64,000 bases of DNA from NCBI RefSeq assembly GCF_023238445.1, contig NZ_CP096658.1, positions 682,001-746,000 of the forward strand. The letters run 5' to 3'. Shown piece after piece: positions 3,852-44,034 of this stretch. The position numbers were made by a program, and so were the translations under genes. The notes below the pieces were generated by a model. It saw nothing but the letters and a program-made list of their open reading frames with translations. It did no database searches and had not been told where the DNA came from. Each line of letters opens with the position of its first letter. Position 1 is the stretch's first letter. This DNA is from Halorussus gelatinilyticus. Its GTDB lineage: Archaea > Halobacteriota > Halobacteria > Halobacteriales > Haladaptataceae.

Positions 3852-4143
3852 CGCTCGATTCGACAATCCACCGGAAGACGCTCGGTGACGCAGACCACCG
3901 GAACGTGCTCGGTGACACGAACCGCGGTTTGGGTGGACTGAAAGGGGCCGCCCGCTCGCGGGCCGCAGGCCCGTGGTCGTCTCTGCGGGCACTATCCGAG
4001 GCGAATCGCAGGTGAGCCGAGGATATCCCGCTGAGCGACCGTCACGCGAGCGAAGCGAGTGTGACCTCGGAAGTCGCAGCCCGCGCAGGAGCGAAGCGAC
4101 GAGCAGGACCGTCTTCCGGAGGCGAGCGGGCGGGGGCTTTCTA
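3852..4143 (+). repeat. Structured intergenic element, copy A (with 27-nt tandem repeats)
   Basis: Fills the 439-bp gap between the HPP-UspA and nucleoside phosphorylase genes. It opens with two exact-length 27-nt units (3852-3878, 3879-3905), each beginning GCTCG, and a third partial unit. Then come GGTTTGGGTGGACTGAAAGG and GCCGCCCGCTCGCGG. The segment CCCGCTCGC (3951-3959) can pair with GCGAGCGGG (4122-4130); inside it TATCC (3993-3997) can pair with GGATA (4021-4025). It ends GGGGGCTTTC. Copy B matches it closely, but copy A carries about 95 nt of extra hairpin-rich sequence at about 4040-4120. No convincing ORF is present. It could be a non-coding RNA or a mobile repeat. Confidence 0.7.
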
Positions 4144-37636: not shown

Positions 37637-37761
37637 GGCGGGGTGATGGTCGTCGGCCGACTAGTGTCTTCTGTCGCACCGAGGGAGGCGTACGGTCCAT
37701 GTGCCCGACGACGTTCCCGAACGAACGCGCGTCGAGAACGGGAGGAAGGCGACATTGACGA

Positions 37762-37846
37762 CCACCGCCCGCTCGCGGTCACGCGAGCGAAGCGAGTGTA
37801 ACCGCGAGCGGGCGGCCCTTCCAGTCCCCTTAAAACGTCACCGAGC
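37762..37846 (-). repeat. Structured intergenic element, copy C (short, inverted)
   Basis: On the minus strand: GCTCGGTGAC, then GGGGACTGGAAGGGCCGCCC, GCTCGCGG, a loop with the CACTCGCTTCGCTCGCGTG segment, and CCGCGAGCGGGCGG closing a 12-bp stem. It matches copies A and B at the GGACTG block and the outer stem but lacks the inner TATCC/GGATA module and one tandem unit. It lies in the 471-bp gap between the pseudogene and the gene at 38108; the rest of the gap shows no gene. Confidence 0.6.
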
Positions 37847-43825: not shown

Positions 43826-44034
43826 TGCTCGATTCGACAGTCCGTCGGCGAACGCTCGAATCGACAAACCAGCAGCGAACGCTCGGTCAGCCGAACCACT
43901 CGTTTGGGTGGACTGAAAGGGGCCGCCCGCTCGCGGGCCTCTGGCCCGAGGTCGACTCTGCGGGCCACTATCCGAGACGAGCGTAGCGAGTCGAGGATAT
44001 CCCGCAGAGCGACCGCGAGCGGGCGGGGGCTTTC
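43826..44034 (+). repeat. Structured intergenic element, copy B (most compact)
   Basis: In the 480-bp gap between purC and cofH. Two 27-nt units beginning GCTCGATTCGACAGTCC and GCTCGAATCGACAAACC (43826-43852, 43853-43879) and a partial third lead to GTTTGGGTGGACTGAAAGG. Then nested stems: CCCGCTCGC with GCGAGCGGG, GGTCG with CGACC, CTCTGCGGG with CCCGCAGAG, TATCC with GGATA. It ends GGGGGCTTTC. The pairing suggests a folded RNA. No convincing protein is encoded; the remainder of the gap shows nothing else except the cofH promoter. Confidence 0.7.

Follow-up and report, generated by a model that had tools for sequence, protein, structure and literature searches.

The structured intergenic block at positions 43826-44034 of the window, meaning the whole 64,000-nucleotide stretch of Halorussus gelatinilyticus DNA analysed here, raises the question of whether its fold belongs to an RNA or to a DNA repeat. 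A sequence-only reading had reported the block as present three times, with stems kept while loops differ, and had taken this pattern as a sign of selection on RNA structure. We find that the block is one member of a dispersed structured repeat family, an assignment made with high confidence, whose elements behave less like the gene of a single regulatory RNA than like a repeat that spreads or is shuffled.

An exact 24-mer, GTTTGGGTGGACTGAAAGGGGCCG, occurs at 3927-3950 and 43902-43925, both on the plus strand; it is found nowhere else in the window, and zero occurrences are expected from shuffles. In both places an outer stem follows and is closed by GGGGGCTTTC. These copies (A and B) match each other over their full length, with the similarity beginning in an upstream arm of CGCTCGGTGACGCAGACCACCGGCGAA-type repeats that precedes most Halorussus copies and nearly all copies in this genome. 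Copy B carries the four stems as originally described, arranged as a single nested hairpin of -83.7 kcal/mol (z -5.7 versus shuffles). Copy A also folds better than shuffles (z -3.6) and keeps the stems imperfectly, with one mismatch in CTCTGCGGG/CCCGCTGAG. The third copy (C) folds better than shuffles as well (z -5.0), but beyond the outer stem and a modified head it has nothing in common with the others: the GGGGCTTTC tail is missing, and a reversed hairpin of another repeat, X, forms its interior. It is a decayed fragment, scoring 37 bits against 112 for copy B, which was in the training set of covariance model R1, and 61 for copy A, which like copy C was outside that set. Thus two of the three reported copies are full-length, and three is a large understatement as a count, because this genome alone has about 30 and the genus has hundreds.

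Table 1. Positions of the elements and their parts in the window (bit scores from covariance model R1).
Feature	Position	Strand	Details
Copy B, complete type I element	43910..44034	+	112.2 bits, E 6e-25; fold z -5.7
Copy B, upstream arm	43826..43901	+	degenerate direct repeats of ~27 nt, form CGCTCGGTGACGCAGACCACCGGCGAA, with a weak dyad (CGGTG..CACCG); read in sequence
Copy B, terminal helix, 5' strand GAAAG	43915..43919	+	partner CTTTC, 44030-44034
Copy B, invariant GGG	43920-43922	+	opposite GGG, 44027-44029; just inside terminal helix
Copy B, outer stem, 5' arm CCGCCCGCTCGCG	43923..43935	+	partner 44014-44026; varies among copies with compensation
Copy B, side hairpin GGGCC-TCT-GGCCC	43935..43947	+	other sequence instead in many copies
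Copy B, type I core	43956..44009	+	CTCTGCGGG/CCCGCAGAG stem, internal loop, TATCC/GGATA, apical hairpin
Copy B, apical hairpin	43976-43992	+	GAC-GA-GC-[GTA]-GC-GA-GTC
Copy A, upstream repeat arm	3852..3926	+	
Copy A, type I element with nested insertion	3935..4141	+	61.4 bits over 3935-4066; tail GGGGGCTTTC to 4141
Copy A, nested repeat X	4041..4119	+	between inner and outer stems; missing from the G399 orthologue
X hairpin 1, GTCACGCGAGCGAAGCGAGTGTGAC	4041-4065	+	
X hairpin 2, CTCGGAAGTCGC..TCTTCCGG			
Copy C, decayed frame	37757..37827	-	37.3 bits, E 9e-7; outer stem CCGCCCGCTCGCG retained, tail gone, core replaced by X hairpin 1 at 37778

The sequence pattern occurs 19-20 times in this genome, where reversed-pattern controls give zero, and with the type I model there are 30 matches at E at most 1e-5 and 33 at E at most 0.01. 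Allowing up to 3 mismatches, the pattern is present in 155 of 392 Halobacteria genomes, with reversed-pattern controls near zero; model matches in a phylum-wide sample are confined to the same order. Type I counts in 18 Halorussus genomes are 0, 1, 6, 9, 10, 28, 30, 41, 50, 51, 57, 63, 71, 91, 98, 102, 102 and at least 150, and the genome with 0 copies is near-complete. The element is also present on a few Halorussus and Haladaptatus plasmids, and Haloarcula carries a homogeneous type I subfamily, once per large plasmid. A viral origin was rejected, with no exact 17-mer match among IMG/VR viral contigs and nothing in phage records.

Against Rfam 15 the window gave nothing at the gathering threshold, and searches at relaxed thresholds gave only chance-level or low-scoring miRNA and snoRNA matches. 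A tRNA/tmRNA scan of the window found none, and searches of the open-access literature by motif letters or repeat terms found no description of the family. The statement that no described family matches has therefore held for Rfam 15 and the open-access literature, and this is a large, apparently undescribed repeat family of haloarchaea. It makes up a large, apparently unannotated share of haloarchaeal intergenic DNA, reaching at least 150 copies per genome and spread very unevenly within the genus; the mechanism of spreading can thus be tested by comparing relatives that have none, one or over 100 copies.

All members share a frame, GGACTGAAAGGGGC-[variable stem]...[stem]GGGGCTTTC, which reads in order GG(A)CTGAAAG, GGG, one arm of a variable-sequence stem (10-14 pairs), the interior, the other arm, GGG and CTTTC. 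The interior can be a type I core (GTCGTCTSAGCGACC-CTATC..GATATG-GTCGCTSAGCGAC), an unrelated type II core (GACGYAAGCAC..hairpin..GNGCNCAGCGAG) or a different set of hairpins, and it can also be empty. No free-standing type I core was found outside a frame, the 13 apparent cases being frames with variant or decayed ends. Upstream of the frames lie either the degenerate ~27-nt repeats (in Halorussus) or another structured module. A structured intergenic repeat, U (GGCGCGCGCTGGCG..hairpin..GCGAGGGATGAGC..hairpin..CAATCGGTTGGGGAGG..GTGGC; loci L172, L188, L217, L260, L061 and others), occurs in 44 copies among the loci examined, of which 28 immediately precede a frame head; when unattached to the frame element it often ends in ..CGGCAGTAGCTAGC. 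Type II cores are occasionally reversed relative to their frame (L053, 2825+; L035, 1546-; L100, near 3451-), and one is nested within a type I stem (L125, 4559+).

Covariation was assessed in type I and type II alignments of copies chosen by exact end sequence and in a second type I set gathered by model from two genomes. Among the 39 pairs of the type I alignment (57 copies), 25 show changes on both sides, and 94.8% of cells are paired; in type II (51 copies), 23 of 24 pairs show double compensatory changes. The covariation score is 0.352 for type I (shuffled mean 0.114, slid at most 0.057), 0.660 for type II (shuffled 0.181, slid at most 0.089) and 0.350 for the model-gathered set (shuffled 0.112). 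The gap is large, and slid controls, unlike shuffles, control for relatedness. In the model-gathered set even the terminal helix covaries (A-U 43, G-C 5, G-U 2). Covariation is thus present by a wide margin in both types and in an independent set, contrary to the stated refutation, and lends strong support to the proposal of a conserved structure. Claims of structured RNA usually rest on covariation alone; here a family with the behaviour of a dispersed DNA repeat shows covariation as strong as that of real RNAs. Two further readouts help to separate DNA from RNA, namely the ratio of G-U to A-C pairs by strand and the balance of GNA and GNRA loops.

When the elements are read on the plus strand, G-U pairs outnumber A-C mismatches by 36:12 and 33:14 in the first sets (A1 and A2) and by 66:12 in the second (A4), or 27:11 without its GU-rich columns. 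Hairpins of the form GA-stem-GNA-stem-GA number 85 on the plus strand and 7 on the minus strand (62 and 6 when dereplicated), compared with one expected from shuffling and a window background of 6 and 6. Because both the G-U pairs and the GNA hairpins are strand-asymmetric, one strand, the plus strand, is what folds. RNA, too, contains GNA loops and tandem G-A pairs. Within the elements, GNA triloops dominate and GNRA tetraloops are near background. The 23S rRNA of this genome, an RNA control of one molecule, shows the opposite, with GNRA dominant on the coding strand. In DNA, mini-hairpins with GNA or GNNA loops on G-C stems are exceptionally stable (PMC4686876). The loop type favours folded single-stranded DNA over RNA, without proving it.

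Nearly every scorable copy (130 of 131) is intergenic. The four possible gene arrangements occur at similar rates (42, 34, 31 and 23, from gene calls based on simple ORF and composition criteria), and orientation relative to neighbouring genes is random; a terminator or leader role is rejected for these reasons. The 150 nt upstream of 167 copies contain no AT-rich, promoter-like zone, and a promoter farther away may exist.

Comparison of related genomes reveals how the elements behave over time. This genome (G000) and that of a sister species (G399) have common flanks at 11 of 30 copies. Six of seven scorable orthologue pairs are less alike (0.39-0.77) than the best within-genome paralogue, and one pair is more alike. 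Two pairs (257/315 and 259/310) have retained the frame and differ in core type. Entire cores have been exchanged or have disappeared at orthologous sites, so that one species has type I where another has type II. Copies within a genome are mostly at most 85% alike, with the exception of recent triplets. In one such case, three copies in G393 are identical over 119 nt at unrelated sites within 7 kb, and their similarity stops about 33 nt before GGATG and 2-4 nt past CTTTC. This triplet shows that recent copying or conversion is real.

The site of copy B lies between two divergent promoters and is occupied in six species, deep branches included, always in the same orientation. Five of these copies have a type I core and one (G400) a type II core, and the outer stem differs with compensation: CCCGCTC/GAGCGGG in G000, CCCGGTC/GACCGGG in G397 and GTCGCTC/GAGCGAC in G400. 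The site is empty in ten species, the closest relatives among them, a patchiness that fits either repeated loss or repeated gain. The constant orientation looks more like long residence than hopping, and counts against the explanation favoured below. In G393 the same intergenic region (L179) carries long runs of CGTCTC and ACGACA hexamers beside the element.

Copy A was said to tolerate a 95-nt insertion between the strands of its outer stem. The insert is real and consists of the second repeat, X, which has two hairpins. The orthologous element in G399, with flanks about 90% identical, is without it, so the insertion is derived and does not reflect looseness of the fold. Elements totalling 21 kb contain X hairpin 1 at 17 places, against 15 places in 897 kb of surrounding loci, a density ~47 times higher inside elements. 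X hairpin 1 thus seeks out these palindromes or survives in them, much as SMR-A of Haloquadratum favours PATE palindromes (PMC3119063). The hairpin is also present at 37778-37802 in the window, within copy C, and GTCACGCGAGCGAAGCGAGTGTGAC is often followed by CTCGGAAGNCGC..GTCTTCCGG.

No transposase is linked to the elements. The Y1 transposase domain (PF01797) is absent from G000, G147 and G393, which hold 30, 91 and 102 copies, and so an IS200-type or RAYT transposase is not required. An autonomous transposon with the same ends was likewise sought and rejected, as none of 213 frames among the loci examined encloses a gene, and the one distant pair of ends proved to be two neighbouring copies. 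The elements have the terminal inverted repeats of a MITE (GAAAG..CTTTC plus the outer stem arms) and lack, among these loci, a MITE's parent transposon. Empty sites are seen, and target-site duplications are unreadable because the flanking intergenic DNA is too diverged at the junctions.

By a modest balance of probability, we favour the view that the element is a non-autonomous dispersed palindrome that acts as folded single-stranded DNA and is homogenised by conversion. The fixed ends (GGACTGAAAGGGGC ... GGGGCTTTC) close the hairpin, and the outer stem can take nearly any sequence provided that it pairs. The space within is empty or is filled by small hairpins or by either of the two folded cores, which are unrelated to each other. 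The plus strand would fold when exposed as single-stranded DNA in replication, repair or plasmid transfer, and host or plasmid factors acting in trans would recognise it by the ends and by the shape of the whole. Copies would spread or be lost, and ectopic conversion, anchored in the ends that all copies share, would overwrite them. More tentatively, and at less than even probability, these may form a class of archaeal elements under selection for the fold of one DNA strand. Recognition would depend on their end sequence and shape, their folded cores would be exchangeable, and an in-trans activity other than an IS200/RAYT transposase would disperse and overwrite the elements across the genome.

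The main rival to this reading as a DNA repeat is a multi-copy family of structured non-coding RNAs, transcribed from the plus strand, bound by protein through conserved internal loops and multiplying as a selfish or regulatory RNA gene family. We consider it unlikely. It accounts for the strong covariation, for the strand-specific tolerance of G-U pairs and for copies that stay at the same site in distant species, and the conserved unpaired residues of the cores (CTAT..ATAT; GACGCAAGCAC..GCGCAGCGAG) would suit an RNA too. A conventional non-coding RNA gene is nevertheless a poor fit, because copy number runs from 0 in one near-complete Halorussus genome to at least 150 in another, orientation is random, no AT-rich box lies in the 150 nt upstream and two unrelated cores are exchanged at one locus. 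The GNA loops in place of GNRA, which are stable in DNA, also speak against it. Of the claim of selection on RNA structure, then, the structure stands and the step to RNA finds no support in the remaining evidence.

Improbable, in our estimate, is that the element arose on plasmids as a signal for single-strand initiation or DNA transfer (an sso or ssDNA promoter-like hairpin) and reached chromosomes when plasmids integrated and recombined. Conjugative Haloarcula plasmids such as pNG500 carry one copy in a non-coding block of 1.2 kb that adjoins a gene of SOSS-B type (ssDNA-binding) and lies near conjugation genes, which suggests that the element may have a role with single-stranded DNA in plasmid biology; folding of one strand agrees with this. 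The block shares a motif, GAGTGCCGGATGGGTGAAAGCCCG..GCCCGGAACACAGGG..CCTCGTTCCGGCGAGGGAGCGC, with the small plasmids pNB101, which has an annotated replication protein, and pHLAJ5II (L324:9441-9935; L325 near 2200-2340; L326 near 2730-2900). The motif looks like a conserved non-coding replication or transfer signal, and the long proteins of both small plasmids appear by eye to contain HUH-like motifs. However, the motif lies next to the element, which is itself absent from the small plasmids, and a shared origin with them was rejected on that basis. Chromosomal copies have no replication or transfer genes nearby, and phage and viral contig collections give no match.

Least probable is that the elements have no function: template-switch (arm-to-arm) correction would keep the quasi-palindromes perfect, gene conversion would homogenise them, and covariation would arise without selection. 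Double changes do far exceed one-sided intermediates (in A2 columns 25/115, GC 27, CG 19, AU 5 and none broken) and whole stems differ between orthologues. The invariant GGG/GGG mismatch and the asymmetric internal loops would not survive arm correction, yet both are fixed, and such correction does not predict the strand asymmetry of G-U pairs and GNA hairpins.

As a non-autonomous dispersed palindromic repeat, the element would be related in kind to REP, ERIC and SMR elements. The attC sites of integrons offer another analogy, being folded single strands that are strand-specific and conserved in shape rather than in stem sequence; the elements described here have no cassette, nearby integrase or GTTRRRY core sites. 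ERIC sequences of enterobacteria are imperfect palindromes of about 127 bp that are likewise intergenic. To our knowledge they have no transposase, which is a further likeness, and no exchange of two cores; they differ from the haloarchaeal elements in sequence and in domain of life.

REP, BIME and REPIN elements with their RAYTs (PMC3733652, PMC3116915, PMC2817692) are also short extragenic palindromes in many copies that vary widely in number among relatives. A REP is defined as a palindrome of 20-40 bp with a GTAG or CGTC tag (PMC3733652), whereas these elements span about 50-300 nt and end in GGACTGAAAG / CTTTC, with neither tag. They differ from REPs further in stems that are free to vary in sequence within a genome, in two exchangeable cores and in their independence of a Y1/RAYT-type transposase. 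SMRs of Haloquadratum walsbyi (PMC3119063) are haloarchaeal elements of about 110 nt that share inverted ends unrelated to known transposons; SMRs show no visible target duplication, and none can be read here. By their descriptions rather than by sequence identity, SMRs are set apart by being >95% identical within a type, where these elements vary widely with compensation, and PATEs by having no terminal inverted repeats and resembling IS605 ends (PMC3119063). As REP-type palindromes sometimes do, some elements form pairs around a spacer: at loci L036, L041, L044, L072, L114 and L144, divergent back-to-back elements flank a common ~40-nt spacer of the ACCCATAGCCGGTTGGTCAACCGGCATGGGT type and recall BIMEs.
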